From the IMG/VR virus record IMGVR_UViG_3300025767_001103, positions 21,751-85,750 of that record: DNA of 64,000 nucleotides. The stretch is one strand, 5' to 3'. A program made the position numbers and the translations under genes. The notes below the pieces were generated by a model, which searched no databases, was not told the DNA's origin, and was given only the letters and a program-made list of their open reading frames with translations. This DNA is from a virus. Shown here one piece after another: positions 32,117 to 60,740 of the stretch. Each line of letters starts with the position of its first letter. Position 1 is the stretch's first letter.

Positions 32117-32726
32117 TATACAAGACGTTCTATTTTGGATGGATGCAATCCGTAATAGTGAGGATCGCTATCGTACATTAGAAAGCTTTTGGAAAGGACA
32201 AGTTAATAGTAAAGTATGGCTTGCAGAATCTCTAGAGCAGTTTATGCTATACGATAAACAACGAATTGCTATCTATGGAGGCTGGAATGGCGTACTTGCT
32301 AGTATTCTTTTTAATAGCAAATTAAACATAGAATATATTACAAGTGTAGATATTGATCCCGTATGTGAGGAAATTGCAAATACTGTAAATAAAAAATACG
32401 AGATGGAAAAAAGATTTCGAGCATTAACAGCAGATATGTGCGATGACAGGATTTCTTTTATGTTAAAATTTTCTAACATAATTATTAACACAAGTTGTGA
32501 ACATATTACACAAGATCAATATGATAAGTGGTTAGATAATCAGCCAAATGATGCATTGTTTGTAATACAAAGCAATAACTATTTTGATCATGAAGAACAT
32601 ATACGATGTTCTACTGACTTAGGTGATTTTGTACGCATGAGCAAAATTAAACCGTTGTGGCAAGGCGAGCTCGAAACACCAAAATATGCACGTTATATGA
32701 TTATAGGCAGAAAGAAAAATGTTTAA
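32106..32726 (+). CDS. Class I SAM-dependent methyltransferase-like protein
   Basis: A 206-residue protein. IAIYGGWNGVLASIL is the glycine-rich SAM-binding strand-loop and ITSVDIDPVCEEIA is motif II with the acidic residue that binds the ribose. NTSCEHIT is a plausible motif IV position. There is no recognition domain for DNA bases, so a protein, peptide or small molecule acceptor is more likely than DNA. It lies between two radical SAM genes and overlaps both by 8-11 nt. Confidence 0.65.
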   Translation: MKVDIQDVLFWMDAIRNSEDRYRTLESFWKGQVNSKVWLAESLEQFMLYDKQRIAIYGGWNGVLASILFNSKLNIEYITSVDIDPVCEEIANTVNKKYEMEKRFRALTADMCDDRISFMLKFSNIIINTSCEHITQDQYDKWLDNQPNDALFVIQSNNYFDHEEHIRCSTDLGDFVRMSKIKPLWQGELETPKYARYMIIGRKKNV

Positions 32727-33786
32727 ATTTGATCAATTAGAAAATATACATTTAGAAATTACAAATCGTTGCCAAGCAAGCTGTCCGATGTGTAGTAGAA
32801 ACTATCACGGCGGTTTAGAAAATCCATTAATTAAAAATCAAGATTGGACAATTGACAATTTTAAACACATTTTGAATAGCGAAGTACTAAACCAAATAAA
32901 CGGTTTTTACTTTTGTGGAAACTTTGGCGATCCTATTATTAATAACGATTTAGCAGAAATGTGTAGTTATGCAACTGATGTTAATCCTAGTTTAGAGATT
33001 AGAATACACACAAACGGCGGAGCAAGAAGTAAAGATTGGTGGAAGAAACTTGCAAAAGTATTGCCTAATAAACATTGTGTTATTTTTGCAATTGACGGCT
33101 TAGCAGATACACATAGTTTATATCGTATTGGTACTGACTTTGACAACGTATTAAAAAATGCAAAAGCATTTATTCAAGCAGGCGGAACAGCAGAATGGGC
33201 GTTTATTAAATTTAAACACAACGAGCATCAACAACTTGCTTGTGAAGCATTAGCAAAAGAACACGGCTTTGCTAAATTTACATGCAAAGACAGTGCAAGA
33301 TTTGTTGCTACTGATAAGTTTGAAGTTTTAGATAAAAAAGGTCAGCTCGAATATTACCTAGAGCCTCCTACAGGAAGTAACATAACTCTTATAACTCAAG
33401 ATGTAATTGACAATTATAAAGATGTGGTAGACGCCAGTGAAATAGACTGTTTTGTTTTAAAACAGAAAGAAATTTATATAACTGCACAAAGAAACATTAT
33501 GCCTTGCTGTTTTTTAGCAAGTGCTCCGTATAATTATATACACCCTAATGATTTAGCTAAAGATATTAGACAAAAGATAAAATCACAGCACTCTAGTCTT
33601 ATTGCAGATTTAGGAAATACTAATGCTCTTAATCATTCTATAAAAGATGTAATAGATTCTAATGCTTGGCAAACAGTATGGGACAAGTACTGGCATGCAG
33701 AAAAACTAATTACATGTGCTAGAACATGTGGTGTAAATAAACTTAGTAAACCCAAAGATCAGTTTATAGACAAGGTAGAGATATAA
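32719..33786 (+). CDS. Radical SAM/SPASM protein
   Basis: A 355-residue protein. C18-C22-C25 (CQASCPMC) is near the N-terminus, as in enzymes without an N-terminal extension. The strand usually carrying GGEP reads CGNFGDP. The C-terminus has DCFVLKQKEI...MPCCFLA followed by CARTCG, a SPASM-type Cys set. This subtype is distinct from its neighbours. SPASM enzymes normally act on peptides or proteins. It overlaps the next gene by 1 nt. Confidence 0.75.
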   Translation: MFKFDQLENIHLEITNRCQASCPMCSRNYHGGLENPLIKNQDWTIDNFKHILNSEVLNQINGFYFCGNFGDPIINNDLAEMCSYATDVNPSLEIRIHTNGGARSKDWWKKLAKVLPNKHCVIFAIDGLADTHSLYRIGTDFDNVLKNAKAFIQAGGTAEWAFIKFKHNEHQQLACEALAKEHGFAKFTCKDSARFVATDKFEVLDKKGQLEYYLEPPTGSNITLITQDVIDNYKDVVDASEIDCFVLKQKEIYITAQRNIMPCCFLASAPYNYIHPNDLAKDIRQKIKSQHSSLIADLGNTNALNHSIKDVIDSNAWQTVWDKYWHAEKLITCARTCGVNKLSKPKDQFIDKVEI

Positions 33787-44741: not shown

Positions 44742-45551
44742 TTAATAACTCTCTATATTGTTAATGCCAAGCGTTTTACGAAATTCTTCTGTAAACTTAC
44801 CGTCGATGCGTAATGCATAACTTTGTTCCATAATGCGCTCTCCCCCATGCCAGTCTTGATCATTCCACCAAGCAGCACGAGTATTAAGATATGTTTTGTT
44901 TTTAGTTTCAGGATCCCACAAATAAAATGCTTTCTTAGTATTAGGACGAATATGTATAAATTCGTTTTTGTGCGGAAACGTTTGATTCATTCCGTTTTTA
45001 GCATCAAGGTCCCTGTGTTCAAAAGGAACTCCGTCTGCTTCGCAATGAAAGAATATAACACGCCCGATGTGTTCGAATATGTTATCTTTGATTAACTGTT
45101 CTGTCCACTTTACTATTCCGGGAAAATGTTCTGCTTCTTCTGTTAGTTTACGTTCTGCTGTTCTGTCATTCCATGACCCTTCTTCCCAAAGGAAATAATA
45201 AATGTAAGGATCGTACGCACCTAGTGCCATTTTTAAATAACGTGTAAATTTATTACGCTGTTTATAATCACCAAAGTCTGAAGGCATAAGTTTCATACCT
45301 TCGACTTTAATAGGATTATCATCTGCTAGTGATTGAAATTCTTCTAATGCTTGATAGATAGGTTTCCAATTTAATGTATAACTCATGTCTTCAAAAGTAA
45401 AACCAGGCGCCATCCATGTACCTTCTTTAGCAAACTCTCTTGCCGCCGCAAAGCCATGTATTATTTCTGGTTGTAATTTCTCAAAAGTTTCCATATCTAG
45501 ATACTTTTCCATATCAAAATATGGTTGACTATTAATTCCTTTAATTGCCAT
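44742..45551 (-). CDS. Fe(II)/2-oxoglutarate oxygenase-like protein
   Basis: A 269-residue protein. H179-x-D181 (EHRDLD), H235 (DWHGGE) and R248 (YALRID) form the triad plus Arg. The N-terminal ~160 residues are a helical region without clear relatives. KAFYLWDPETKNK is the beta strand between. It overlaps the radical SAM gene upstream in the operon by 11 nt, strongly suggesting coupled translation with it. Confidence 0.65.
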   Translation of the reverse strand: MAIKGINSQPYFDMEKYLDMETFEKLQPEIIHGFAAAREFAKEGTWMAPGFTFEDMSYTLNWKPIYQALEEFQSLADDNPIKVEGMKLMPSDFGDYKQRNKFTRYLKMALGAYDPYIYYFLWEEGSWNDRTAERKLTEEAEHFPGIVKWTEQLIKDNIFEHIGRVIFFHCEADGVPFEHRDLDAKNGMNQTFPHKNEFIHIRPNTKKAFYLWDPETKNKTYLNTRAAWWNDQDWHGGERIMEQSYALRIDGKFTEEFRKTLGINNIESY

Positions 45552-46596
45552 AATTCTTTATCCATTCTTCAGGTATAGTATCGGGCAGCATTTTTCTTTT
45601 GTTTACTGCATAGTCTCTTAGTATAACTTGATGCACTAACGGACTCGGAGGCTTCCCTGGAAGTATATCAGCAATTGCTTCAGTTTGTACTTCAGATAAG
45701 TCTAATGTTTTAGCATCTGGCCATTGTATAATTTTAACTACAATGTTATTAATAATTAGCGGATAATGAGCTCGGTTGCCGTCGTTATGATCCATTCCGA
45801 GACTCCAGTTATTTTTAGTAGCTATTGCCTTTGTTTCTCTTACTAATTCAGACATATAAATTTGTGGGCCGCCGGGGAATCGTCCGATGTCAGCGCCACA
45901 GCGTACTCTATATTGCTTGCATACATCTAATCCAAATTCTTGTATTTCTTCTAAACAATATTCTAACTGTGTCATGTCTTCTAATGTATAACTGATATTT
46001 TTAATTACTAGTCCTAACTCGGTACAATTTTTAATACCTTCCATCTGCTTTTTGCGCACAGTATGACCTTGATAGTCAGGATGGTTGAGACCAAATGTCC
46101 AGGCAACATTCTTAAAGTCTTTAAACTTTGCAGCATATTTACGATTTGCCATATTAACGCCATTGGTCAAAATCATAATACCACGAGGCTTTCCAGGAAG
46201 TGATTGTATAGCTGTTATTAACTCGGGCAAATCTTTTCTTGTAGTAGGCTCTGCTCCTACTAATGCAACAGGGTATCCGTCATCGGGCCAAGATTTAATT
46301 TTTGCTAATATCGATAAAATTGCTGGATCTATAGACTTGTTATCAGGTTCTTGATAACAATGCGGGCATGCTAGATTGCATTTATTAGTTGTCTCTAGAA
46401 AGTAGCTTCCTAATGCATGTCTTGGATAGTTGTAGTTTAAATAAAACTCTGCATCAGGCTCTACAAGATGTTCAACGTATCCGTGCTCTGGGCATGTCTT
46501 ACTTAACCATATTTGATTATCTTTTTCAAATCTAGTTGCTGGCACATGTTGATAACATTGTTCGCAAATTGATAATGTATCTTTTAGTTTATTCAT
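45541..46596 (-). CDS. Radical SAM protein of the MJ0619/tetraether-synthase-like type (second copy)
   Basis: A 351-residue protein. An N-terminal zinc-like domain (C11, C14, C35: CEQC, VPA, SKTCPEHG) precedes C73-C77-C80 (CNLACPHC). This N-terminal CxxC...KxCPEHG layout is known from the archaeal pterin methylase MJ0619 and tetraether lipid synthase families. The GGEP position reads VGAEPT. It lacks the usual C-terminal extension of those families. It is 4-nt overlapped with its paralogue (46593) and 11 nt with the oxygenase downstream. Substrate unknown. Confidence 0.75.
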   Translation of the reverse strand: MNKLKDTLSICEQCYQHVPATRFEKDNQIWLSKTCPEHGYVEHLVEPDAEFYLNYNYPRHALGSYFLETTNKCNLACPHCYQEPDNKSIDPAILSILAKIKSWPDDGYPVALVGAEPTTRKDLPELITAIQSLPGKPRGIMILTNGVNMANRKYAAKFKDFKNVAWTFGLNHPDYQGHTVRKKQMEGIKNCTELGLVIKNISYTLEDMTQLEYCLEEIQEFGLDVCKQYRVRCGADIGRFPGGPQIYMSELVRETKAIATKNNWSLGMDHNDGNRAHYPLIINNIVVKIIQWPDAKTLDLSEVQTEAIADILPGKPPSPLVHQVILRDYAVNKRKMLPDTIPEEWIKNYGN

Positions 46597-47639
46597 CGAT
46601 ATTTCTCTGGCAATGTATCAAACAACGATTTTCTTTCATTGACTGCTCTATCTCTTAATATAACTTGATGCAATAGTGGACTTTTTGGTTTTCCTGGAAC
46701 TACAGTTGCCCAAGACTCGGAATAGATTTCTTCAAAGTCTATTGTTTTAACATCTACCCATTTAATAAATCTATGTGTAATTCCGTTTATTCTTACCAAA
46801 TAATGTGTACGATTTCCGTTTTTTTCATCTACTTCCCACGACCAACCTTTTTCATTACATACACGTTCTGCTGTTTTGACTAGCTCTGATAAGTAATGTT
46901 CTGGTTCATCTTCGTCTGGAGTGCGTCCAATTTCAACGCCTAGCTGTATTCTTGCATCGCTGCATACTCCCTTATGATGCCATTCTTGAATTTCTTCTAG
47001 AACATCATCTAGCTGATCCATAGTACCTAATGTGTAAGTAAAATTCTTAATAGTAAGCCCTAGCTCAATACAGTTGTCTATGCCTATTTGCTGTTTTTTT
47101 CTAATAACACCACCGTTATAATCTGGATGGTTAAGACCAATGGTCCATGTTAACCCTTCTATGCCTACAAATTTTTCTGCATATGCACGTTTGCCTAAAT
47201 TTATTCCGTTAGTAACAACCATTAGCCATCGTGGAACTTCAGTTAACGATTGTATTTCTTTTACTATGTCTGATAAGTCTTTTCGTGTAGTTGGTTCTGC
47301 TCCTACTAATGCTAATGCCATATCATCAGGTAACTCTTTAGTTTGTTTAATAATGGACGAAACTGTAGGATCTATTGACAAATTGTCTGGCATTTGATAA
47401 CAATGGGGACAATCTAAGTTACATCGATTAGTTATCTCAAACCAGAAAGTATTAGGTAATCTACGTTCATATTTGAAATTAAGATAAAACTCTGCGTCTA
47501 CTTCTACCAAACACTCGTGATAGCCGTGCTCAGGACATGTTTTACTTAACCATATCTGGTTGTCTCTTTCAAATCGTACTGCCGGTACATGTCGATAACA
47601 GTGTTCACACATTGATAATGTATCTTGTAGTTTTTTCAT
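46593..47639 (-). CDS. Radical SAM protein of the MJ0619/tetraether-synthase-like type (first copy)
   Basis: A 348-residue protein, paralogous to 45541 along its length: C11, C14, C35 (CEHC, VPAVRFERD, SKTCPEHG) and C73-C77-C80 (CNLDCPHC), followed by ALVGAEPTTRKDL. The two have diverged in the C-terminal third. It is first in the minus-strand operon, with a TATAAT on the minus strand at 47662-47657. Tandem copies suggest two steps or two positions on one substrate. Confidence 0.75.
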   Translation of the reverse strand: MKKLQDTLSMCEHCYRHVPAVRFERDNQIWLSKTCPEHGYHECLVEVDAEFYLNFKYERRLPNTFWFEITNRCNLDCPHCYQMPDNLSIDPTVSSIIKQTKELPDDMALALVGAEPTTRKDLSDIVKEIQSLTEVPRWLMVVTNGINLGKRAYAEKFVGIEGLTWTIGLNHPDYNGGVIRKKQQIGIDNCIELGLTIKNFTYTLGTMDQLDDVLEEIQEWHHKGVCSDARIQLGVEIGRTPDEDEPEHYLSELVKTAERVCNEKGWSWEVDEKNGNRTHYLVRINGITHRFIKWVDVKTIDFEEIYSESWATVVPGKPKSPLLHQVILRDRAVNERKSLFDTLPEKYR

Positions 47640-47702: not shown

Positions 47703-48389
47703 ATGGACTATGAATATTATTGGAACAATGTGCCAGGATCTGGGTTGTGTAGAAATAACTTAATCTACACTAGTTTAGTAAATGCACAACAAACTGAATT
47801 TGTACAATGGTATTATAATGATCAAGGATATCACAAAGGACAAAATCAAGTAGTCGATCCTGCACTAATGGAATCAAAATGGCTGCGCGAAGTTAAGTAT
47901 ATTACACAAATGAGCGAACAATATCCTGAATTAGTTCCTATAATAAAAACTATTAACCACACTGAAAGAAAATTACATTTAGAAATAGAAGGTCCTGATT
48001 TTTGGGAACTTGCAAAATGCGACCAAGCAAACTACGATAGTGTATTACCTAACTGGCAAGAACAGATGCTAGACATAATTCAAGCGCACAAGAGTCTAGG
48101 CATTTACAAATACAGTATGCATCCTAGCAGTTATTTTGTAGTAAATGGAAAGCTTAAAAGCATTAACTATTTTTTTGCGTATAATGAAGAAGAAGGTCCT
48201 ATTAGCATAGCAGACCATTCTAGTCATATATACAGCACACGGCAAGAAGAAATGCGTAAACACATTGAATCGTTAGGCATTGACTGGCATGCACCGCAGC
48301 CTTTAAATTTATTAGAACAATTATGTTGGGAGAGTTTTAGAAAGAACTTTCCTAATGATTTTATAGAGAAAGCTAAATGTATAAAATAA
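47703..48389 (+). CDS. Kinase-like protein, paralogue of 42443
   Basis: A 228-residue protein from ATG 47703 (GAGGA 10-14 bases upstream; the in-frame ATG at 47688 overlaps that site). MDYEYYWNNVPGSG aligns with the N-terminus of 42443, and KWLREVKYITQ, LHLEIEGPDFW and YKYSMHPSSYFVVNGKLKSINYF match its N-lobe Glu and catalytic-loop region. The HxD/DFG residues of active kinases are not intact. Likely a pseudokinase or divergent small-molecule kinase. Confidence 0.5.
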   Translation: MDYEYYWNNVPGSGLCRNNLIYTSLVNAQQTEFVQWYYNDQGYHKGQNQVVDPALMESKWLREVKYITQMSEQYPELVPIIKTINHTERKLHLEIEGPDFWELAKCDQANYDSVLPNWQEQMLDIIQAHKSLGIYKYSMHPSSYFVVNGKLKSINYFFAYNEEEGPISIADHSSHIYSTRQEEMRKHIESLGIDWHAPQPLNLLEQLCWESFRKNFPNDFIEKAKCIK

Positions 48390-48931
48390 TTCCTTGGAGT
48401 GAAGACTTAGAATTATCTGAATTTTATGAAGGTGCTGCTGCCCGTGGGTTTGAAAATAATGCATCGCAGCATATGCTTGTAGATTGTTTTCGTAAAGAAG
48501 CTAACTGGCAAACTTGGATATTATACTATAATAATGAAGCTGTAGGCAGTGTAGCAGCACATACATTTGACGATGTAATGGGCCCTAATACATTTAGAGT
48601 TGCTGCTAGAACATGTGTGTTTACAGACAAGTTACCTTTAGTTAGTTTAAGGACACGCAATCAGATTGTTACACATCAACATGCAACTGGACAATTTTTA
48701 ATTCCTGCTTGTTTAGAATGGCTTCCCAAAGGAGCTAGAGCATTTATAACTTCTAACGAAAATGAAGCAGGTACCCAAAAAATAGTACACAGAGTATTTG
48801 CTCCTGCTATGGAAAAGACAGGGCAAATGAAACATATAAAAGATGTGTTTTATAGAGGCACTAATCAAACAGTGTGGGAAATTTTTCCAGACAAGTTTTT
48901 TGAAGAATTAAATAAACATCCTAGATGGTAA
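48377..48931 (+). CDS. GNAT-like acetyltransferase-like protein
   Basis: A 184-residue protein. The order helix-strand (IIPWSEDLELSEFYEGAA), then a beta hairpin (WILYYNNEAVGSVAAHTFDD) and a later VFTDKL strand fits an N-acetyltransferase fold, but the R/Q-x-x-G-x-G/A loop is not clear. It ends in PDKFFEELNKHPRW, which is nearly the same as the end of the next, unrelated protein. It overlaps the kinase-like gene by 13 nt. Confidence 0.45.
   Translation: MYKIIPWSEDLELSEFYEGAAARGFENNASQHMLVDCFRKEANWQTWILYYNNEAVGSVAAHTFDDVMGPNTFRVAARTCVFTDKLPLVSLRTRNQIVTHQHATGQFLIPACLEWLPKGARAFITSNENEAGTQKIVHRVFAPAMEKTGQMKHIKDVFYRGTNQTVWEIFPDKFFEELNKHPRW
48887..48931 (+). repeat. 45-bp direct repeat, copy A (3' end of 48377 gene)
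   Basis: It matches copy B at 49674-49718 at 39 of 45 positions, in the same reading frame and ending at the stop codon. All six differences are transitions. The repeat encodes PDKFFEEL-x-K-x-x-R. Confidence 0.85.
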
Positions 48932-49722: not shown

Positions 49723-51147
49723 ATGGTGATTAAGTATAACAATATAGAAAACCGTAAGATTGTTTTTTGTATATTAGATAATTTAAACGAATGTGACAAT
49801 TTAATAGCTAAAGATATGTCTATTAATACAATGGATTTTTTAATCCGGACAATGGTAACACAGAAATATGATATATTAATAAGTTCTAACGAATCTGATT
49901 TGTTAACAGAAGCAGTTAAAATAAATAATTACACACATGCTGTTGTTGTAGCAACTGGCACTTATTCCCCTTTTGGTAATAGATTCTTTGATGAAATTGA
50001 AACCTTGTGTAATCAAGATTTTTTTATTGCGGGACATATACTAGATAGACAAGATTCTTATTTAGAACTACACAAACAGTTTTATATAATAAATTTAGAT
50101 GATTATAAAAACTTAAATTGTCCTATTATAGAAGAAGGTAACTGGTTTTTAGAAGATTTGCACGAAGAATTCTGCCCTATTGTATCTAAGTACGGCGACG
50201 ACATTAATAAAATTATTCAGAGTGTAACTATCGGTACTAAAAAGAAAACATATAAATCTAAACTACACGGTTATAATATTCTTAAATTAGCATTAGAGAA
50301 TAATAAAAAACTTATTGATGTTGGTCAAGGACTACGCTCTTCTAAACATTATTTGTATCATGAGTACGATCATGTCTTTATTAATGCATATCCTAAAATT
50401 TTTCATCAACAATTATTTGCTAGAAATGTAGTTGCACCTTGGAATACAGATACCGTTTACGACAAAATCGAATTCAGCGGTCCTGTTGAACAATATGTTA
50501 CAATAGGTACTGGATTAAATTGGATTAGAAACCTAACACTTATTGGTTACACGTCTAATACTGAAGTTGTTTTTACTGATATTAATCATAACTGTTTAAG
50601 ATTTATGAAAGAATTGGTTGAAAACTGGGATGGTATCGACTACGATAAATTTTATCATTCATTTGAATACTTTTATCCTAGTGGAGTACCTGAACACGTT
50701 TTCAAAAATTTATCAGCTAAATGTGAATTTGATGAATTTAAGAATTTTTTTGATAATTGGAACGATACATGGAATACAATTAAAAAATTAAAATTTAGTT
50801 ATCGTCTAATAGACTACACTTCTGAATACGATTTGTCGTGGATTGACCCAACTAAGAGTACATTAATGAACTTTAGTGATTTATTTAATTACGCAGCATT
50901 AACTCCCTTACAAAGTGTTAAATTTAAGATAGGTGCTGAAAATAGACTAATTCACAATCTATCTAAAATTAATCCGGATATTACAGTAATAATTACGTCT
51001 AGGGCTGCCGAAGGATTTAAAGAGTTTAATAGCAATACAATAAGCAAAGTTAAAGATTTAGAATTAACAACTCTTGAAGAATTGAAGAAATTGCCGTGGC
51101 ACGAACACGATTGGAATAAGGTAGGAAGAAGTCACCTTGGACTCTAA
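49723..51147 (+). CDS. Two-domain protein, methyltransferase-like C-terminal half
   Basis: A 474-residue protein. The first ~130 residues (SINTMDFLIRTM, HAVVVATGTYSPFGN, DFFIAGHILDR) look like a Rossmann-type sugar-transferase-like fold. The second half has YVTIGTGLNWIRNL, EVVFTDINHNCLRFM and NFSDLFNYAALTPLQ, resembling a class I methyltransferase core (glycine strand, acidic strand end, N-F/D-x-F loop). No known family is certain. It ends with a CTAA stop overlap against the opposite gene. Confidence 0.45.
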   Translation: MVIKYNNIENRKIVFCILDNLNECDNLIAKDMSINTMDFLIRTMVTQKYDILISSNESDLLTEAVKINNYTHAVVVATGTYSPFGNRFFDEIETLCNQDFFIAGHILDRQDSYLELHKQFYIINLDDYKNLNCPIIEEGNWFLEDLHEEFCPIVSKYGDDINKIIQSVTIGTKKKTYKSKLHGYNILKLALENNKKLIDVGQGLRSSKHYLYHEYDHVFINAYPKIFHQQLFARNVVAPWNTDTVYDKIEFSGPVEQYVTIGTGLNWIRNLTLIGYTSNTEVVFTDINHNCLRFMKELVENWDGIDYDKFYHSFEYFYPSGVPEHVFKNLSAKCEFDEFKNFFDNWNDTWNTIKKLKFSYRLIDYTSEYDLSWIDPTKSTLMNFSDLFNYAALTPLQSVKFKIGAENRLIHNLSKINPDITVIITSRAAEGFKEFNSNTISKVKDLELTTLEELKKLPWHEHDWNKVGRSHLGL

Positions 51148-51788
51148 GGCATAGCATCTATTTTTATAAATTTGCCATCGACATTTTGTTTTTTGGCTGC
51201 GTCTAATATTAATTCTTTCCATCCAGGTAATGAATCGTTTCTTGATGCAATAATAAAATACCTATCTTCGTTGCTATTATTCCATAAACCGTGATAATAA
51301 TGAATATTCATAGCATATGCATGCCCTGGCATCATATCTAAGTTAGGGCTACCATCTTGCCATCGCCATTCAAACCCTTCTGGACTATTTAATACAAATG
51401 AAGTATTATCAATAATAGGACCTTTACTGTCATTATGAAAATTAATATATCCCCCTGCTTCTAGTAACATAAATCGAACTCTACTATATTGTTCGCACGG
51501 AAAAGTGTTTATAAAATAATCCTTAGTAACAGGTGCCGAATTTGAAGCATCAGTCCAACTCATTATTTTGTATGCTTCTTTATGATCAGTAATTCCGTAT
51601 TGATCCCACGATCCGGTTTTATTTTCGTCTAATCCGTGTAGCACTAATCCGTACCAGCCTTCACTGTCACCGTCTCGATGTTTAGTAAATTTATGTCTAA
51701 GATTCTTTGCTTCTTCTAACATTTCGTTGTACGGAAACACCACATCTAAATCTAAGTATTTGGCTTCGGATATAAAATATTCTCTCAT
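51144..51788 (-). CDS. AspH-like Fe(II)/2-oxoglutarate oxygenase
   Basis: A 214-residue protein. H118-x-D120 (NFHNDS), H166 (YYHGLWNNS) and R176 (DRYFIIASR) follow AspH/cupin order, with NTSFVLN between. It overlaps the upstream TauD-like gene by 4 nt. It is last of a three-gene minus-strand operon. Confidence 0.65.
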   Translation of the reverse strand: MREYFISEAKYLDLDVVFPYNEMLEEAKNLRHKFTKHRDGDSEGWYGLVLHGLDENKTGSWDQYGITDHKEAYKIMSWTDASNSAPVTKDYFINTFPCEQYSRVRFMLLEAGGYINFHNDSKGPIIDNTSFVLNSPEGFEWRWQDGSPNLDMMPGHAYAMNIHYYHGLWNNSNEDRYFIIASRNDSLPGWKELILDAAKKQNVDGKFIKIDAMP

Positions 51789-52576
51789 TTATCTCTCTCA
51801 TAATCAAACGTAGCACGATGCACACGGCGAGTATTCATTGATTCGAAATGTAATCTTTTGTGTACACCCAACCATTGGTCACTTAATGAAACATCACCAG
51901 TTTTCCATTCAAGTATGTGGCAATACTTATCTTGTGTAACAAAGTCAAACAATGGTTCAGCAATTTCTAAACTCTGATTTCTAGTCATACCTTCAAATCT
52001 TTCAAATTGATGCAAGCTTAAAAATAATCCTGTTTCACCTATGTGATTAGTGTACACAAGTGGAAATGGTACATCATCGTATATTGTTCTATTTTTAAAA
52101 TTTTCTTGTGTACGTTCTACGCTATGATTAACATTACCAAATGTAATAACTTTTAAGTCTTTGATACGATCTTTTGTATCGCTGTCTAAGTCCTTGTATG
52201 CTTCTATAGTATTATTCCAAACAGTTGTACTACCTTCAACTCCTTGTTCTCCATATAACCAAGCAACTCCTGAGCCCGGCCTTGCATGTGGACTTTCGTT
52301 ATGCCATAGCATTTCTTCTTTGTGTCCTGCTATACTATTTTCTGTTACAAGACCTATGTAACCTTCTTTGTCTAATGCACTACGGTCAAATCCTGGAGTG
52401 TTAGGTTTGAATAACACGTATGGATTAGGAAACATTTTTACAATTTCTGCTTCTCTTTCTACAGATAGGTTCTGATTTCTTATAGTAATAGCAGTATGTT
52501 TTGCACATAACCTAATGAGATTTTTAATTTCTTGTGCAGTAGTAATATTTAAATCGATATCTTCAATTATTAGCAT
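51785..52576 (-). CDS. TauD/TfdA-like dioxygenase
   Basis: A 263-residue protein. It begins with the typical HTAITIRNQNLSVE region. The metal site is H92-x-E94 (LWHNESPH) rather than H-x-D, as in clavaminate synthase-type enzymes. The distal His is H239 (GVHKRLHF) and the Arg is R250 or R251 (NTRRVHR). Length is near the family norm (about 270-300). It overlaps the acyltransferase gene upstream by 14 nt. Substrate unknown. Confidence 0.7.
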   Translation of the reverse strand: MLIIEDIDLNITTAQEIKNLIRLCAKHTAITIRNQNLSVEREAEIVKMFPNPYVLFKPNTPGFDRSALDKEGYIGLVTENSIAGHKEEMLWHNESPHARPGSGVAWLYGEQGVEGSTTVWNNTIEAYKDLDSDTKDRIKDLKVITFGNVNHSVERTQENFKNRTIYDDVPFPLVYTNHIGETGLFLSLHQFERFEGMTRNQSLEIAEPLFDFVTQDKYCHILEWKTGDVSLSDQWLGVHKRLHFESMNTRRVHRATFDYERDK

Positions 52577-53327
52577 TACTATATCCTAATGTTTGTATAT
52601 TGTCCCACTTACTGTCGTCTAAGTTATTAAACTCGTCAGCGAATCTAAAAACATTATCAACAGGAAGTGTTTTTAATATATCTAATCGAGCGTTCCACCA
52701 TTTTGTTTTTAACAGCATTTCTTTTACATTGTCAGGAAATCTATCTCTAATAACTTTATTCACGCCGCCTACAATAGTATAAGGTTCTACGTCTTTGGTA
52801 ATAATAGCATTAGCGGCAACGACAGAACCATTGCCTATTGTTACGCCAGGCATAACAATAATGCCATCACCTAGATATACATCATTGCCTATTACAACAG
52901 GACGAGAATTCATTTCTTTTACATCTGTTTGATCTCTACTAATATTTAACATGACAAGCTCTTCGTCTGTATAGTCACCTTGTTTGGCCATTATAGTGTC
53001 TGGGTTAATGCTAACTCCTGAAAAATTGTGCATGCCAGCAGCAATAGTACAGCGGTATCCTACACCACTATGTCTGCCCATAAACACATTGCATCTCATA
53101 TATCCATTTGCACGTATACTAGAATATGCTCCTAGAAAAATCTTATTAGGCGCATCTTGAAAACTAGGAATATTATTCATTATTCCTTTTTCAAAAAGTA
53201 TGCCTTTGAGATATTCTGTATCTGTGTATCTTATGTTATGCTCATTTAAGTGCATATGGCTGCTTAATAAGGTATCTGCAGAAAGTGTACCGGTTAAAAA
53301 ATATTCTAACTTTGTTTCGATATTCAT
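52563..53327 (-). CDS. Hexapeptide-repeat acyltransferase (CatB/XAT-like)
   Basis: A 254-residue protein. Left-handed beta-helix hexapeptides run from about residue 70 to 195: CNVFMGRHSGVGYRCTI, VVIGNDVYLGDGIIV, VTIGNGSVVAANAI. A catalytic His is seen in AAGMHNFSG. The C-terminal PYTIVGGVNKVIRDRF and KTKWWN are the standard CatB-like ending. Substrates in this family are often sugars or antibiotics. A TATAAATA-like box (53333-53340) lies only 5 bases before the ATG. Confidence 0.75.
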   Translation of the reverse strand: MNIETKLEYFLTGTLSADTLLSSHMHLNEHNIRYTDTEYLKGILFEKGIMNNIPSFQDAPNKIFLGAYSSIRANGYMRCNVFMGRHSGVGYRCTIAAGMHNFSGVSINPDTIMAKQGDYTDEELVMLNISRDQTDVKEMNSRPVVIGNDVYLGDGIIVMPGVTIGNGSVVAANAIITKDVEPYTIVGGVNKVIRDRFPDNVKEMLLKTKWWNARLDILKTLPVDNVFRFADEFNNLDDSKWDNIQTLGYSNANN

Positions 53328-53366: not shown

Positions 53367-53930
53367 ATGGATTTCTCAAACGCAAAAGCAATAGCAGTAA
53401 ACATTGATGTTGACGAAGATAGACTTACACAAGAACTGGAGTCTATACCAGAAACACTTTGGGATAGTGGTGTAGATAATAAAACAAAAACCTATTGGAA
53501 CACTATATGGCTAACAAAAAATGATGTAGACGAGTTTGCTGATTTTAAAACTGCAAAATCTATTAAACATGATGCATGGTATTGGAATGAAGATTTAGAA
53601 ATACCTTATATAAAATCTTTAGTAGAATCTTTGCCTATTAGAACTATAGGAATGATCCGTGCATTTATTTTAACAGGGCCATTGCCTATTCATACTGATA
53701 GTAATGAGTTAACACCTAAAGCACTTGACTATAATTTAGCATTGACTATAGCATCTAAATTAGAAGTACCTATGACAATGACAGATGGTACAAAGGTTAA
53801 AGAAAAAACTATATTTTTTAATGATAGTATTCCTCATGGATTTCCAGACGCAGTAGGCACACAAATGAGCATACGAATTTTTGGCGATTTTGAGTACGAT
53901 AAATTTGAATTGGACACAGTGTATGAATAA
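53367..53930 (+). CDS. Small Fe(II)/2-oxoglutarate oxygenase-like protein
   Basis: A 187-residue protein from ATG 53367; a TTG at 53352 is possible but overlaps an ATAAATA box (53355-53361). H109-x-D111 (PIHTDS), H157 (IPHGFP) and R170 (MSIRIFG) form the triad plus Arg. It precedes a second small oxygenase (8-nt overlap) and then the halogenase, so it may prepare or modify the halogenase substrate. Confidence 0.6.
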   Translation: MDFSNAKAIAVNIDVDEDRLTQELESIPETLWDSGVDNKTKTYWNTIWLTKNDVDEFADFKTAKSIKHDAWYWNEDLEIPYIKSLVESLPIRTIGMIRAFILTGPLPIHTDSNELTPKALDYNLALTIASKLEVPMTMTDGTKVKEKTIFFNDSIPHGFPDAVGTQMSIRIFGDFEYDKFELDTVYE

Positions 53931-54387
53931 CCTAGAATATTTAGATCATCTTCCTACTATGCCTGTCGAGTTAGTAGACGATATTCTAACCACAGTAGAA
54001 ATTGGCGAACGTTACAGTTCAAAAGGCAATACAGAAGCATCTAGCTATAAACATTTTGCTAGTATTGATGCTAGTGATAAACTAAAAGAATTTACAAATA
54101 GTCTGTTTAATTTTAAACACGATGCACACATTTTTGTTTTATCTGATCACATTCCGCCACACATAGATAATCTCGAAGTAAGAGATGTTGCGTTTAACTA
54201 CGTTATTAAATCAGGCAATGGCGTGACTAGATTTCATACAGATAAAACAGATGATAGTATTTACGAAGAACATACTATCGATGTAGGACGTTGGCATCGA
54301 CTAAATGTAGCTAACCTCCATAGTGTTACTATTCCAAATCCGCCTAGAGTAGTATTAACTATGTCAACACTTAAAGGACGCTTGTGA
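53923..54387 (+). CDS. Small Fe(II)/2-oxoglutarate oxygenase-like protein
   Basis: A 154-residue protein from ATG 53923; an in-frame ATG at 53881 would give a larger overlap. H80-x-D82 (PPHIDN), H133 (NLHSVT) and R142 (PPRVVL) follow the usual order in a minimal cupin barrel. It overlaps both neighbours (8 and 4 nt) and is thus coupled to the halogenase. Confidence 0.6.
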   Translation: MNNLEYLDHLPTMPVELVDDILTTVEIGERYSSKGNTEASSYKHFASIDASDKLKEFTNSLFNFKHDAHIFVLSDHIPPHIDNLEVRDVAFNYVIKSGNGVTRFHTDKTDDSIYEEHTIDVGRWHRLNVANLHSVTIPNPPRVVLTMSTLKGRL

Positions 54388-55898
54388 AAAAAGTAACGAT
54401 TGTAGGGGGCGGTACCGCTGGATGGTTTGCTGCTGCATGGCTAGCAAAGTATCATCCTAATTTAATAATTACATTGATTGAATCTCCAAACATACCTAAG
54501 ATAGGAGTCGGAGAAACTGTTACACCTCATGTAGCACAGTTTTTTAAACAGCTGGGCATTAACGATAAAGTTTGGATGAAAGAAACAGGAGCAATCTACA
54601 AATTCGGCAACAAGTTTGTAGATTGGAATTCAAAAGAGAATAAGATTGAATATTCTAGTTTTAACTATCCAAGAGATATTACTAGATTAAATACAGCCGA
54701 GTCAGATGTATCTGAATTGTTTTTAGAGAAAGATAAGATCAGCACATCTGATGTTCTTATGCATCTTCTATCTAACAAGAAACTAGATAAGTTTGACAAG
54801 TATTTTAATACACAATGTCATTATATGGACAACAATGTTATGCCGTATAAAACCGGCGAATATACACTAAGTCCATTATATAGTTGGAGCCAGCATATAA
54901 ACGCAGAAAAAGCAGCAAGCTTTATCAAAGACAACCATGCAATACCAAACGGTGTAATACATGTGTTAGGCGAAGTTAAAGATGTTATAGCAGAAGGCGA
55001 TAATATTAAATCGCTAATACTAACAGATGATACTACACAGTCTGCCGACTTCTTTATTGATGCTACAGGATTTAGGCGTGTGCTTGCAACAAAATTAGGT
55101 TGGAAGTATAAAGAATATGCAAACTATCCTATAAGGAAAACTTGGGTATGCCAGCGTTCCTATAGTGATCCTACTACTGAACTTGTTAACCATACTCAAA
55201 GTATTGCTGAGCCGTTTGGCTGGCGATTTAAAGTATGCTTGTATCACAGGATGGGAACTGGTTATAGTTTTAGTCCGTCGCATGTATCTGATGAAACAGT
55301 ATTAGATTATTTTAAAGAACGCACCGATAACAGATTAATGGAACCTAGATTAATTTCATGGACCCCGGGTAGAATTGAAACTCCTGCTAAAGGTAATGTT
55401 GCATTAATCGGACTAAGTATTGGATTTGTTGAAGCATTAGAAGCCACATCATTATTAGTAATCACAGAATCAATTAAAACTATAAGTGATGTGCTTGCAG
55501 GAGAAAGGTCACTATCGAGTTATAATGATAAAATCACAGGTCTATTAGATAACATCTATGATTTTATTATTGTTCACTATACCCTTAGCAATAGAGATGA
55601 TACTGATTTTTGGAAAGATATGCAAGAGCTAGGACGCAAAGACAACCATTTAGAAATGATTAAGGATAAATTTAAAAAACTTAAATTCGGACAGTCCTTG
55701 GGCTTTCCTGACTTCTTGTGGGGACAAGTTGCTAAAGCATGGGGTGTAGATTTGTCTACATGGAACAGAACTGATATTAATGCCGATAACGTTAACCGTA
55801 CATATGATTATTTTATAAGTGAATTTAACAAACATCAGCAGATAAGTGCAGATTGCGAGAATACGTATCAGTGGTTAAAGAAGAATATATATAATTAA
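54384..55898 (+). CDS. Flavin-dependent (tryptophan-type) halogenase
   Basis: A 504-residue protein, the family's usual length. The FAD motif GGGTAGW is at residues 8-14, GVGETVTPHV at 41-50, and K73 in AIYKFGNKF is at the catalytic Lys position. The segment GWRFKVCLYHRMGTGYSFS corresponds to the second signature, but the W-x-W-x-I-P core is replaced. Trp-type halogenases are known in marine T4-like phages (for example VirX1 of a cyanophage). It oxidises halide with FADH2 and oxygen; a flavin reductase is not seen in the window. The altered W-x-W-x-I-P motif leaves substrate class open. Confidence 0.85.
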   Translation: MKKVTIVGGGTAGWFAAAWLAKYHPNLIITLIESPNIPKIGVGETVTPHVAQFFKQLGINDKVWMKETGAIYKFGNKFVDWNSKENKIEYSSFNYPRDITRLNTAESDVSELFLEKDKISTSDVLMHLLSNKKLDKFDKYFNTQCHYMDNNVMPYKTGEYTLSPLYSWSQHINAEKAASFIKDNHAIPNGVIHVLGEVKDVIAEGDNIKSLILTDDTTQSADFFIDATGFRRVLATKLGWKYKEYANYPIRKTWVCQRSYSDPTTELVNHTQSIAEPFGWRFKVCLYHRMGTGYSFSPSHVSDETVLDYFKERTDNRLMEPRLISWTPGRIETPAKGNVALIGLSIGFVEALEATSLLVITESIKTISDVLAGERSLSSYNDKITGLLDNIYDFIIVHYTLSNRDDTDFWKDMQELGRKDNHLEMIKDKFKKLKFGQSLGFPDFLWGQVAKAWGVDLSTWNRTDINADNVNRTYDYFISEFNKHQQISADCENTYQWLKKNIYN

Positions 55899-56542
55899 AT
55901 ATTCTTCCATGTACTATTAATAGAATTACTAACTTTTCTTCTTAAAAATTTAGAAGACACCGTATCAAAAATATCACCTGTAGCAAACCCATTAATAATA
56001 CATTCGCCGTCGTTTGCAAATTCTACATTATATTCATTTTTAGGAATAACATCAAAACTTTCTGAGTTATAACCAATAAGAACTGGCGGCGGCATCTCAG
56101 TCATACCGTACCAGTTAGCAACAGTTTGTACGCCTTTGTTATTAAAGTCGTCAATCATTTCTTGAGAAACAGGCCCGCTTCCGGTAACCATGTAACGAAC
56201 ACTAGACATGTCAAGATTGTTCCATTCGTCTACTTCTTTAAGTAATTCCCAGTGTCTAGGAATAAGTGCAATGTATGTTGGATTTATTTGTTTAAATTTT
56301 TCTATATAACTAGCAGCCTCAAACTTAGCTGATACTAATCGAGCACCTGCCTTATACGCTGGCATTGCTGTTATAGTATAGTGAGCTATTGTATTTGCCG
56401 GAAACACGTCTAATACAATGTCGTTGCTAGTAAGCCCAATTTCTTTTATAGATTTTTGTATGCATGACTCGATGTATTCCCAAGAGTGAATTACTGTCTT
56501 AGGTGCTTTTGTTGTTCCGGAAGTTAATAAAGTTAATGACAT
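55895..56542 (-). CDS. Stripped adenylate-forming (ANL) ligase core
   Basis: A 215-residue protein. TSGTTKAPK (residues 7-15) is the phosphate-binding motif, YGMTEMPPP is the A5 motif, and GFATGDIFD the A7 motif, then FLRRKVSNS at the A8 position. Full ANL enzymes are 500-600 residues; here the N-terminal ~170 residues and the C-terminal swinging domain with the catalytic Lys are missing. It could be a split enzyme or an inactive ligand binder, or a degraded gene kept in frame. It meets the halogenase gene tail to tail (4-nt TTAA overlap). No ribosome site is clear. Confidence 0.7.
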   Translation of the reverse strand: MSLTLLTSGTTKAPKTVIHSWEYIESCIQKSIKEIGLTSNDIVLDVFPANTIAHYTITAMPAYKAGARLVSAKFEAASYIEKFKQINPTYIALIPRHWELLKEVDEWNNLDMSSVRYMVTGSGPVSQEMIDDFNNKGVQTVANWYGMTEMPPPVLIGYNSESFDVIPKNEYNVEFANDGECIINGFATGDIFDTVSSKFLRRKVSNSINSTWKNI

Positions 56543-56560
56543 AATAATATATACCTAGCC

Positions 56561-56589
56561 AAAAAAATACCAGCTTTAAAACTGGTATT
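56561..56589 (-). terminator. Rho-independent terminator of the Mtd-type fibre gene
   Basis: Stem AATACCAG/CTGGTATT (8 bp, loop of 8) followed on the minus strand by TTTTTTT. It lies 22 bases after the stop at 56611 and before the ligase start at 56542, separating the two. Confidence 0.8.
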
Positions 56590-56610: not shown

Positions 56611-57864
56611 TTAGTTTAAGTCTACCCAAGCACTACCTGTGTAACCTTGGAACTTAGTACCTGTTGTATTAAACACCATCATACCTGCTGTCGGGGTTGG
56701 AATAGCTGCATCACGTGCTGCATCGTCTGCATACACTCCAGGAGTAATAGCACCCGGTGCTTTAAACTCACCATTGCCATAAAAGTCGAAACTGGAAGTG
56801 CTAGTGCCGCCGGCGCTTACAAGAAGAGATGTAAGAGAATTAGGAGATGTGTCAGTTATTACAGCATCAGACATCAAGCGAGAAGCCATTATAGTTGTTG
56901 CTTTACCAAAGCCAGCTGCATTGTCCCAAGCAGATATTTTCCAACCGCCTATTATGTCATTAGCTGCTACTGATAGCGGAGTATCAATTGTTCCTTTAAC
57001 AGATAGAAATTCTGTATAAGGAAACCCACCGGGTGAACCGTTAGTAACAGTTGTAATCTGAACTGGTGTTCTGTTCTGGCTATTTAAAATAATAGTTTCA
57101 CCACTATTATTTGAGTTAATTACGCTTGTATTAACAACTTCTGTTGTTACTGTATTACTAATTGCGTCAACTATTAGTGTACTATCATCGCCGAACACAC
57201 TACCTTTTAGATCACCGATTACAGCACCTTCTACTGTGCCAGTTAAATCACCAACAAAACCAAAATTTGCTGTAATCTCGTTACCGACAATATTGTTATT
57301 GTCAGTATTAATCATTATAGTACTGTCATCGCCTACAATATTAATTTTATAATTTTGTTGTTCGTTGAACAAATCTACAGTTGCTACAGCAACAAAATGG
57401 TTACCATTAAACTGTAATATATCACCGGCTTCAGCAGGGTTACTCGTTAAAAACACATCAGTTAAATCATCTAATGAAAGAGCACTAAGTCCTGGAACTG
57501 CTACTGATTCCCATTTGCTAGTAACATTATTAAACGATAGCACCTCGCCGCCAGCTGCTCCTGTTAAATCAGTATCAGTAAGTGCATCTAATGTAGATCC
57601 ACCAGCAATTGATGGTTCCCATTTGTTAGTGCCTGCGTTAAATTTTAGTACATCGTTATTAGTTGCACCTGTTAAATCAGTGTCAGTAAGTGCATCTAAC
57701 GTAGATGAACCGGATCCTGCGCCCCCGGTAACTAATGTTCCACCAGCAGTTGTACCGTCACCTATGTAGAGTAACTTGGTATCAGTGGTGTAGATTAGTT
57801 CACCACTTACGGGTGTTATTAGCAAGCGCTCTGCATCTGTGCCGCGTCTTAGACGTAATGCCAT
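56611..57864 (-). CDS. Tail fibre-like protein with Mtd-type N-terminal domain
   Basis: A 417-residue protein. It starts LRLRRGTDAERLLITP and contains GELIYTTDTKLLYIGDG, the small N-terminal domain of Mtd-like adhesins. Residues 54-125 are two 36-residue repeats (STLDALTDTDLTGA...KWE), with a third, diverged unit after. The rest is beta-rich and ends PTAGMMVFNTTGTKFQGYTG, a common tip. It has a late promoter and an AGGAG site. Its position at the far end of the cassette parallels the fibre genes at the near end. Confidence 0.8.
   Translation of the reverse strand: MALRLRRGTDAERLLITPVSGELIYTTDTKLLYIGDGTTAGGTLVTGGAGSGSSTLDALTDTDLTGATNNDVLKFNAGTNKWEPSIAGGSTLDALTDTDLTGAAGGEVLSFNNVTSKWESVAVPGLSALSLDDLTDVFLTSNPAEAGDILQFNGNHFVAVATVDLFNEQQNYKINIVGDDSTIMINTDNNNIVGNEITANFGFVGDLTGTVEGAVIGDLKGSVFGDDSTLIVDAISNTVTTEVVNTSVINSNNSGETIILNSQNRTPVQITTVTNGSPGGFPYTEFLSVKGTIDTPLSVAANDIIGGWKISAWDNAAGFGKATTIMASRLMSDAVITDTSPNSLTSLLVSAGGTSTSSFDFYGNGEFKAPGAITPGVYADDAARDAAIPTPTAGMMVFNTTGTKFQGYTGSAWVDLN
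57490..57705 (-). repeat. Two 108-bp tandem repeats in the fibre gene
   Basis: The repeats encode 36-residue units beginning STLDALTDTDLTG. The 39-bp stretches at 57560-57598 and 57668-57706 are nearly identical and exactly 108 bp apart. Confidence 0.85.
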
Positions 57865-59155: not shown

Positions 59156-59433
59156 TTGTACTTTAAATGTGGACATGCTAACATGAAATAACTCATATCT
59201 TTTGTCTCTTCAAACCCAACAGTTAATACTTGTACTAACTTATTTTCGCTGTCTAGGCTTACGTTCTTACCAGCATAAAATCTATGCTTTAGATGTTGTC
59301 TAATCCACTTAACTAAACTTTCTTCTAAATTGTAAGTCATAGGTAAGTTAACGTACTCGAAGTGAGGCGGCGCTGATTTAACTTGCCTCACTTCAAATAC
59401 ATTTAATGGATTAGGTGTTCTATTTTTTATCAT
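59152..59433 (-). CDS. Hypothetical protein after the VWA gene
   Basis: A 93-residue protein overlapping the VWA gene by 4 nt (ATGA), so it is translationally coupled to it. It is basic, with helical KWIRQHLKHRFYAGK. No recognised motif. It may be an accessory factor of the MoxR/VWA system. Confidence 0.55.
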   Translation of the reverse strand: MIKNRTPNPLNVFEVRQVKSAPPHFEYVNLPMTYNLEESLVKWIRQHLKHRFYAGKNVSLDSENKLVQVLTVGFEETKDMSYFMLACPHLKYK

Positions 59434-60740
59434 GCAGCCGCATCGTAGTGTACTGAGGTACCAAACGGTCCTTCCAAGTTTTTATCTCTATTCGAGTGGA
59501 TAACAAACACTGTGTCGCAATAGTCTGGATCACCCCAGCTATCCCAAGCATAGCCATCTGTAAACATAATGAGCTTCTTAGGAACATAGTCTTGTTCTTT
59601 CATGTATGTCCAGTTAGCCATAAAGTCAGTACCGCCGCCGCCCATCAGTTGATAGTCCAGCAAGTCCTTGCCATCGTTTGCAGCAAAATCTTCTTCATTG
59701 TATACGTCTGTGTCAAAGCACCATACTTTAATATTATAATCTGGAAACTCTTCCATGATGCCTTTGACTTCGCCTAGAAAGTCTTTGCCTTGTACTTCGC
59801 CAATTGATCCACTCATGTCTATGCAAACTGCAACATCGATAGTATCTTGGAAGTCCATGCTAGGTAAAACTGCGCCGCTCATTTGTCCTTTTCGTGAAGG
59901 ACGACTAAAGGTATAATCACTTCTAATTGAACTTTGTACTGACTGACGAATAATTTCTCGCCAGTTCATCTTAGGCTCAGTAAGTTCTTTGATCATACGT
60001 GCAACAGCACCAGGAACATTACCTGCCCCTGCGCTCTGTGCCGCCGAAATCATGTTTTCTTTGATCTCGTCTTTGATCTGCTTCATATCTTCTTTAGAAT
60101 ATTTAGGCTTGCGTTTACTTGTAGCGTTGCCGTTGCCATCTTCGCCATCTTCGCTGTCACTGCTGCCTTCGTTGTCACTGTCCATGTCTAGGTGCTCGTC
60201 TAGCATTTCGCCAAGTTGCTTTAAGTACTCTTCACCGTTCTTTTTAGCTTCTTCGTAGACGTCGTCGTATACTTCTTCGCTTGTCCATCCTTCGTATTTA
60301 AAGTCTTGATAGCAGTCTACAATGCTTGGAATTTGTCCAATACGGTCACGTACTAGTGTATTGTTTACAATATAGTCTGCGCTAATGTTATAAATCATAG
60401 GATTACGATCTTCTCTGCGTCCTAGATGATCAAATACCATATGCAAAATTTCGTGTGCAACAACGAACTCAATTTCTTTATTGTTCATTGCATTAAAAAA
60501 TTGTGTGTTGTAGTACAAGCTACGACCATCCACTGCGGCAGTACCTAGCCAATCATCGGCAGCAACAATCTTTAAACGTGTAGCCATGTTGCCAAAGAAA
60601 GGATGACGCAATAGCAACCCAATACGTGCCGTAATAATACGGTCCATAACTTCTACACGCATCTCTTCTAATGCTTCAGGTGTAATATCTGGGTCCGGAG
60701 TAAAGTTTTTTAGTTTACTTTGTGTATCTTTAGTAGCCAT
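59430..60740 (-). CDS. VWA-domain metallopeptidase-like protein (DUF2201-type)
   Basis: A 436-residue protein. Residues 96-100 are HEILH, a zincin-type HExxH. An acidic, low-complexity linker spans 180-210 (SDNEGSSDSEDGEDG). A VWA domain starts about residue 300, with D308-M-S310-G-S312 as the MIDAS metal site. Partner of the MoxR ATPase upstream, as in chelatase-like systems that remodel protein complexes. It has its own sigma-70 promoter. Confidence 0.8.
   Translation of the reverse strand: MATKDTQSKLKNFTPDPDITPEALEEMRVEVMDRIITARIGLLLRHPFFGNMATRLKIVAADDWLGTAAVDGRSLYYNTQFFNAMNNKEIEFVVAHEILHMVFDHLGRREDRNPMIYNISADYIVNNTLVRDRIGQIPSIVDCYQDFKYEGWTSEEVYDDVYEEAKKNGEEYLKQLGEMLDEHLDMDSDNEGSSDSEDGEDGNGNATSKRKPKYSKEDMKQIKDEIKENMISAAQSAGAGNVPGAVARMIKELTEPKMNWREIIRQSVQSSIRSDYTFSRPSRKGQMSGAVLPSMDFQDTIDVAVCIDMSGSIGEVQGKDFLGEVKGIMEEFPDYNIKVWCFDTDVYNEEDFAANDGKDLLDYQLMGGGGTDFMANWTYMKEQDYVPKKLIMFTDGYAWDSWGDPDYCDTVFVIHSNRDKNLEGPFGTSVHYDAAA

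Follow-up and report, generated by a model that had tools for sequence, protein, structure and literature searches.

A conserved half-size relative of adenylate-forming enzymes at the edge of a probable hypervariable island in uncultured phages

Introduction

Adenylate-forming enzymes of the ANL superfamily (acyl-CoA ligases, adenylation domains of nonribosomal peptide synthetases and luciferase) are two-domain proteins in which the C-terminal domain is held essential for adenylation, through its A10 lysine, and for domain alternation. What, then, could be the role of a phage protein that carries the ANL core in 215 residues and ends without such a domain? The question is raised by a locus in a 64,000-nucleotide stretch of DNA from an uncultured virus (hereafter the window), comprising positions 21751-85750 of the 85.75-kb IMG/VR record IMGVR_UViG_3300025767_001103, which is itself a fragment. 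There, the gene for the small protein, here called mini-ANL, abuts a halogenase gene that follows two putative 2-oxoglutarate (2OG)-Fe(II)-type oxygenase genes (nt, nucleotides; aa, amino acids):

53367..53930, + strand: oxy1, putative 2OG-Fe(II)-type oxygenase, 187 aa; ATG start, a TTG 15 nt upstream also being possible
53923..54387, + strand: oxy2, putative 2OG-Fe(II)-type oxygenase, 154 aa; ATG at 53923
54384..55898, + strand: flavin-dependent halogenase, 504 aa; GTG at 54384; PF04820 at E 4e-83 and phrog_2928 at 7e-95
55895..56542, - strand: mini-ANL, half-size adenylate-forming core of 215 aa (A3 to A8) with C-terminal T-W-K; PF00501 match, model and alignment

Re-reading of the window bears out the gene coordinates of a preliminary description of this locus, together with its overlaps of 8 nt between oxy1 and oxy2 and 4 nt between oxy2 and the halogenase. 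The halogenase and mini-ANL converge, their stop codons overlapping by a further 4 nt, and are therefore not co-transcribed. What that description observed is thus confirmed, while its interpretation of the four genes as a carrier-free halogenation pathway is partly supported by the analysis that follows. The explanation we favour, with a confidence modestly above even, is that mini-ANL is a minimal, carrier-free acyl-adenylate-forming protein, its catalysis being predicted, that borders an exchangeable slot for tailoring enzymes in a hypervariable phage island.

Results

A conserved half-size ANL family

Mini-ANL is a conserved, intact, half-size ANL family common to about 100 uncultured phages. 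A query with the single protein retrieved 24 IMG/VR relatives at 58-85% identity, and a query with an alignment extended these to at least 96 confirmed contigs, 80 of them retained; among those listed, nearly all match over the full length. The relatives are 210-225 aa long, and each of 20 large records encodes exactly one copy. Across 56 distinct sequences, 44 alignment columns are invariant, including most of two nucleotide-binding motifs and the C-terminal tail:

56498..56524, - strand: A3 (P-loop) motif TSGTTKAPK, residues 7-15; T7, S8, G9, T11, P14 and K15 invariant
56096..56122, - strand: A5 motif VANWYGMTE, residues 141-149; A142, N143, W144, Y145, G146, T148 and E149 invariant
55904..55912, - strand: C-terminal T-W-K, residues 211-213; invariant, also kept in a bacterial homologue (L303, below); candidate stand-in for the A10 lysine

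Equally invariant are the A7/A8 residues T188, D190 and R202 and a set of pocket-like positions (N50, I52, A53, P88, P95, H97, W144, P152 and P153). Mini-ANL thus has the A3 P-loop of ANL proteins (T-S-G-T/S-T-x-x-P-K) as well as the A5 Y-G-x-T-E, A7 T-G-D and A8 arginine, which provide the adenine, Mg and ribose contacts. Where it could be computed, dN/dS between mini-ANL and its relatives is 0.12-0.28, indicating purifying selection. The preliminary description of a 215-residue core on the opposite strand, with TSGTTxAPK and YGxTE motifs and no catalytic-lysine domain, therefore holds. That the window protein matches the Pfam AMP-binding profile (PF00501) over positions 169-330 of 384 only, less than half, might suggest a decayed fragment of a full-length ANL or an assembly break. 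This reading is refuted by the present data: the same length and start recur in about 100 contigs under purifying selection, the motifs are invariant and no remnant of the absent parts is found.

Outside IMG/VR the family is sparse. GenBank phages gave no good match and two weak ones (23% identity, about 70% coverage). Scans of 84,980 prokaryote species genomes, which were pattern-based and may have missed relatives, found no mini-ANL with a first pattern set and one homologue with a second. This protein, L303, is encoded in a Dehalococcoidia metagenome-assembled genome (contig JAPYRK010000027.1, 2998-3639, + strand); it has 213 aa, is 48% identical and ends in GKTWKDVS, and it is the sole match at E 1e-30 in 294 genomes of its class, the other 293 having none. 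It is stand-alone, preceded by a CoA_transf_3 (class III CoA-transferase) gene, with FMN_bind_2, HAD, ABM and Thy1 genes nearby. Owing to this homologue we dropped the idea of a phage-exclusive family. We found no description of a truncated phage adenylation family in the open-access literature.

Fold and missing parts

The AlphaFold model of mini-ANL (mean pLDDT 82.5, pTM 0.82) matches MenE (3ipl) with a Foldseek E value of 3.9e-11, and the likeness to ANL proteins spans its whole folded length. Residues 1-206 superpose on residues 193-442 of PchD (7tz4) with a VIA Z of 17.2 and a root-mean-square deviation (rmsd) of 2.9 over 204 aligned residues, BasE and 4CL giving similar results. By superposition, mini-ANL is the second half of an ANL N-terminal domain, from the P-loop to the hinge (about residues 185-440 of full ANLs), and it shares with the superfamily the fold of that half and motifs A3, A4, A5, A7 and A8. 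By sequence its nearest relatives are FadD, 4CL and feruloyl-CoA synthetase, and by fold MenE and the aryl-acid adenylases. Whereas members of the superfamily have about 400-550 aa, mini-ANL has 215, lacks the A1-A2 part of the N-domain and the A10-lysine domain, and ends in T-W-K about 13 residues past A8, where other ANLs continue into a C-terminal domain of about 100 residues.

The missing parts were not found elsewhere. Profile searches of 13 records with PF00501 and PF13193 returned only mini-ANL itself (profile positions 157-332) and no AMP-binding_C domain, and PF00501 positions before 157 are absent from all 13; a split ANL with its other parts encoded at a distance was rejected on these grounds. 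With neither a complete N-domain nor an A10 domain, mini-ANL is best termed a truncated relative rather than an ANL enzyme of the canonical type. The protein is nevertheless real, conserved and under purifying selection, keeps its ATP- and Mg-binding residues and has no detectable split partner. One of the phages, L051, additionally encodes a 468-aa ANL (3657-5063, + strand) two genes upstream of mini-ANL, with a similar Y-G-x-[TS]-E-x-P-P-P-V motif and a C terminus without an obvious A10 G-K motif.

The closest precedents are compact ANLs that make a bond directly from the adenylate and whose active site is completed by the C-terminal extension of the other subunit. In NatL2, a PaaK-type, ester-forming ligase, this extension supplies the active-site Lys418 from the other monomer (PMC7204872), and ClxA and AjiA1 have the same extension (PMC12519233). 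ClxA aligns with the mini-ANL model from ClxA residue 66 onwards. These proteins, of about 400-436 aa, keep the C-terminal domain (residues 326-404 in NatL2, followed by the extension at 405-436), whereas mini-ANL has no such domain; what it does have is an invariant C-terminal lysine, placed with low confidence in the model.

An exchangeable slot beside mini-ANL

Eleven relative contigs in IMG/VR carry oxy1, and all 11 carry mini-ANL. Their gene order is hexapeptide transferase, oxy1, oxy2, a slot of variable content and mini-ANL, usually followed by a tail-fibre gene. The slot is empty in L279-L282, L285, L288 and L289, where oxy2 and mini-ANL overlap by 4 or 23 nt. A radical S-adenosylmethionine (SAM) gene occupies it in L284; L283 and L286 have a radical SAM gene, a methyltransferase gene and a gene of 245-250 aa, and L287 has the methyltransferase and this same 245-250-aa gene. 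None of the 11 has a halogenase in the slot, an arrangement seen in the window only. A 48%-identical halogenase (17964-19490) is present in the closest relative contig, 3300048011_000498, where it lies about 13 kb from mini-ANL (32709-33353).

The variable slot and this distance mark the window halogenase as cargo: it is an exchangeable insert between oxy2 and mini-ANL, and mini-ANL is a fixed element of the island edge. The preliminary description had envisaged oxygenases, halogenase and ligase as one module; what stays together in the 11 relatives is instead oxy1-oxy2-mini-ANL. The outcome that was to overturn that description, a ligase lying outside any conserved module in every relative, did not arise: the ligase does sit in such a module, but not in one defined by this halogenase. 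Since the halogenase is exchangeable, a pathway shared with mini-ANL is possible, not established.

Recurrent neighbours in more distant phages

Clustering of the mini-ANLs at 90% identity left 39 non-redundant loci with at least 3 kb of downstream sequence; these are related by descent, and counts over them are not independent events. A GNAT-fold gene lies close downstream of mini-ANL in 21 of the 39, a lower bound because the open-reading-frame picker drops overlapping frames, and in 20 of these 21 it overlaps the end of mini-ANL by 11-53 nt (19 on the same strand). Its modelled product (AlphaFold pLDDT 89.7) superposes on PA3270 (8gxj) with a VIA Z of 12.7 and an rmsd of 3.4 over 158 aligned residues. 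A convergent halogenase is also present near mini-ANL in 21 of the 39 loci, mostly 470-560 nt away. With the GNAT-fold gene and a different halogenase each beside mini-ANL in this many loci, the ligase-halogenase neighbourhood recurs. A halogenase is encoded once in each of 12 among the 20 large records; its distance from mini-ANL is about 0.5-0.7 kb in 11 of these 12.

These mini-ANL-linked halogenases fall into several lineages and not into a single clade, and some are as short as 366-415 aa. A single origin was considered and finds no support in the tree (at least three changes, 0% of bootstraps), within the limits set by sampling and by the long branch of the window protein. Many of them are followed by arrays of Asp/Asn-hydroxylase-like genes. 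Such PF05118 arrays stand beside compact halogenases at L072:8398-12103 (-) and in many related loci; redundancy included, their cluster c0 has 299 members spread over about 100 loci. The compact halogenases themselves, such as L095:7137-8243 (-), L071:7140-8246 (-) and relatives (366-415 aa), have GWMWNIY or GWQFxI and are about 100 residues shorter than the VirX1 type.

A profile search for PP-binding domains found none in the 85.75-kb record of the window; 1 of 13 mini-ANL records exceeded the cut-off, about 37 kb from its mini-ANL. At this distance of about 37 kb, a mini-ANL phage has a carrier-protein-like gene (PP-binding, 79-aa frame) at G012:C1:67041-67235 (locus L277).

The window halogenase and oxygenases

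In addition to its profile matches, the window halogenase has PDB matches that include VirX1, PrnA and PyrH. The GxGxxG motif is present as GGGTAGW, and the active-site glutamate is E353, aligned with PyrH, VirX1 and others. Two further sites were located:

54600..54602, + strand: codon of Lys73, the catalytic-lysine equivalent; alignments with PyrH, VirX1 and others
55218..55238, + strand: G-W-R-F-K-V-C in place of G-W-x-W-x-I-P; alignment

A halogenase that has its lysine and lacks W-x-W-x-I-P, as first noted, is thus what the alignments return. The Fx.Px.Sx.G motif is not matched either, the sequence there being F-V-E-A-L-E-A-T-S. The protein groups with L195-L206 at 45-48% identity, a clade that appeared only with an alignment query, a single-sequence scan having found no relatives. 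Its members have GWxFKIG and FVEPxEANA instead of GWxWxIP and FxEPLESTG and keep the catalytic Lys and Glu; with the window protein included, the clade motifs are W-x-F-K-[IV] and E-[PA]-x-E-A-x-[AS]. The flanks examined of the 12 clade loci contain no mini-ANL.

Like VirX1 of cyanophage Syn10 (6QGM) and other phage-encoded tryptophan-halogenase homologues, the window protein combines PF04820 membership with GxGxxG, the catalytic Lys and the active-site Glu; it differs from VirX1 (27% identity) in having GWxFK[IV] for GWxWxIP and in departing from Fx.Px.Sx.G. The W-x-W-x-I-P motif is said to prevent monooxygenation, yet it is absent in some flavin-dependent halogenases such as Bmp5 (PMC8407142), so that membership in PF04820 at the profile level stands and canonical behaviour is not assured. 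It is unlikely that the window enzyme is a flavin monooxygenase that lost halogenation along with the motifs said to keep substrate off the flavin. The two replaced motifs would fit such a loss, but the enzyme retains both the catalytic Lys and the active-site Glu, the altered motifs (GWxFKIG and EPxEANA in L195-L206) are a signature of the clade and not decay, and Bmp5 is among the halogenases that do without W-x-W-x-I-P. For VirX1 itself, only test substrates and no natural one are given in review (PMC8407142).

Both oxygenase families keep an H-x-D...H triad with a downstream Arg, a set typical of 2OG-Fe(II) oxygenases. In the numbering of the first alignment rows, H109, D111, H157 and R170 are invariant in 7 oxy1 sequences, and H96, D98, H145 and R154 in 10 of oxy2. 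The putative label, like the earlier 'cupin oxygenase-like' assignment, is taken from these residues only; neither protein has a Pfam, NCBIfam or convincing PDB match. A relationship to Asp/Asn hydroxylases was considered and finds no support, a profile comparison (hhalign) with an Asp/Asn-hydroxylase set being not significant. Annotated 2OG/phytanoyl oxygenases stand directly upstream of a halogenase in two cultured phages, cyanophage Sf-CH11 and pelagiphage HTVC008M. The oxygenase-halogenase part of the locus is therefore an ordinary phage arrangement of a pair type already known, and it is the halogenase clade that is non-canonical.

Island setting

The locus is best explained as lying at the edge of an island of tailoring enzymes, hypervariable in content, in a large uncultured phage of myovirus-like type. 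Tail-fibre-like genes flank a 40-kb stretch of the window (about 16.7 to 56.5 kb) in which about ten radical SAM genes are accompanied by several oxygenases, an epimerase and further genes of the island. Near mini-ANL the following features are found:

56611..57864, - strand: tail-fibre or receptor-binding-like protein (Mtd_N); PF18454 at 5.9e-9
56566..56589, no strand assigned: terminator-like hairpin separating the tail-fibre-like gene from mini-ANL; a T tract on either side, scan match on +, T run after it on -; the number of such hairpins is not above chance
52563..53327, - strand: hexapeptide-repeat transferase, conserved neighbour of oxy1; PF00132 at 3e-8 and synteny
51785-52576, - strand: TauD-family oxygenase; PF02668 at 6e-25 and synteny
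51144-51788, - strand: Asp/Asn hydroxylase-like oxygenase; PF05118 at 5e-7 and synteny
48377..48931, + strand: distant relative of the GNAT-fold family found next to mini-ANL; hhalign probability 98.4

A scan for sigma-70 promoters gave matches below chance and is uninformative. The Mtd_N tail-fibre family is the commonest upstream neighbour of mini-ANL, adjacent in 26 of 56 loci, and together with the c6 family it accounts for this position in 43 of 56.

Pelagimyophages have a hypervariable host-recognition cluster in which radical SAM cassettes come and go (PMC7029224). The island described here resembles that of T4-like pelagi- and cyanomyophages in spanning tens of kilobases near tail genes and in its tail fibres, radical SAM cassettes and gene exchange (PMC7029224). 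In contrast to those phages, the tested genes of our record (ATPase and structural genes) are nearest to the jumbo myoviruses PA5oct and 121Q, and the island includes a halogenase, many oxygenases and mini-ANL. The radical SAM genes of the island extend over 20568-47639, and two of them, arranged in tandem (45541-46596 and 46593-47639), have an HMPTM N-terminal zinc ribbon. A 474-aa protein without Pfam or PHROG match (49723-51147, + strand) represents family c4, present throughout the related phage islands. The gene at 59430-60740 (- strand) appears by eye to encode a vWA/metallopeptidase-type partner of the adjoining AAA ATPase; the name of its PHROG match, phrog_1314 'HNH endonuclease', seems doubtful.

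Discussion

On the explanation that we favour, mini-ANL would bind ATP and a carboxylic acid and make or hold the acyl-adenylate without CoA or a carrier protein. The tail lysine of T-W-K may replace the A10 lysine, acting either within the same chain or from a second subunit; a neighbouring transferase, the GNAT-fold protein whose gene overlaps mini-ANL in many relatives, could then receive the acyl group. The halogenase, oxy1 and oxy2 would tailor the acid or the product. Several points weigh against this proposal. ANL half-reactions normally need a lysine from the C-terminal domain and an N-terminal subdomain that shapes the acyl pocket, and mini-ANL is without both. The T-W-K tail is modelled at a pLDDT of about 50-59, and its reach to the active site is a proposal only. 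In the window, the GNAT-like gene lies 7 kb from mini-ANL on the other strand. Finally, recurrence beside halogenases could be positional, because mini-ANL marks one end of the cargo slot and related phages share ancestry.

This last point leads to the possibility that the association with halogenases is purely positional, mini-ANL happening to delimit a cargo hotspot beside a tail-fibre gene while the enzymes do not cooperate. We regard this as a sizeable possibility, though short of an even chance. The predominance of Mtd_N or c6 upstream of mini-ANL, a slot that accepts a halogenase, a radical SAM enzyme, a methyltransferase or nothing, and the comparable island of pelagimyophages (PMC7029224) all agree with it; on the other side, the single halogenase in 11 of the 12 large halogenase-bearing records sits close to the single mini-ANL and not elsewhere in their 53-187 kb, and several distinct halogenase subfamilies occur there. 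The main rival on the question of catalysis is a pseudo-enzyme that binds ATP, AMP or an acyl-adenylate and serves as regulator, chaperone or specificity subunit of a partner such as the GNAT-fold protein. The absence of both the A10 domain and the opening part of the N-domain, tight coupling to the GNAT-fold gene and the 468-aa ANL of phage L051 would suit such a role, which we nonetheless hold to be rather unlikely: pseudo-enzymes usually relax some catalytic positions, and here the ATP- and Mg-site residues, including A5 Glu149 and A8 Arg202, and the C-terminal lysine are invariant. The two rivals partly overlap, and the confidence placed in each is accordingly not exclusive of the other.

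The single, dedicated carrier-free halogenation pathway of the preliminary description, comprising oxy1, oxy2, halogenase and mini-ANL, seems to us distinctly improbable. Its carrier-free element fares better than the rest, as no carrier protein was found in the record and mini-ANL has no C-terminal domain; the tight packing of the four genes and the recurrence of mini-ANL-halogenase neighbourhoods in other phages also speak in its favour. The four-gene unit, however, is seen in this record only and is kept in no relative found, where the slot holds other genes or none; halogenases of the window clade sit elsewhere, including at 13 kb in the closest relative; mini-ANL and the halogenase lie on opposite strands; and the halogenases linked to mini-ANL are not of one clade. 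In a bolder form of the explanation that we favour, about 215 residues would be enough to form acyl-AMP, and no smaller adenylating enzyme of this kind would be catalytically complete. A tail ending in the invariant T-W-K lysine, possibly acting across a dimer, would replace the whole C-terminal domain, and mini-ANL would directly feed a GNAT acyltransferase; exchangeable enzymes would halogenate and hydroxylate the product of this phage pathway. We put this forward tentatively, as an outcome less to be expected than not.

The interesting object of this locus is thus the half-ANL family and not its halogenase-oxygenase part. A widespread, strongly conserved family in which the C-terminal domain and the beginning of the N-domain have been dropped raises the question of what constitutes a minimal adenylation catalyst, and offers a compact scaffold for activating acyl groups without a carrier. 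With its exchangeable contents, the neighbouring slot provides natural experiments on the targets of halogenases, radical SAM enzymes and 2OG oxygenases in phages.

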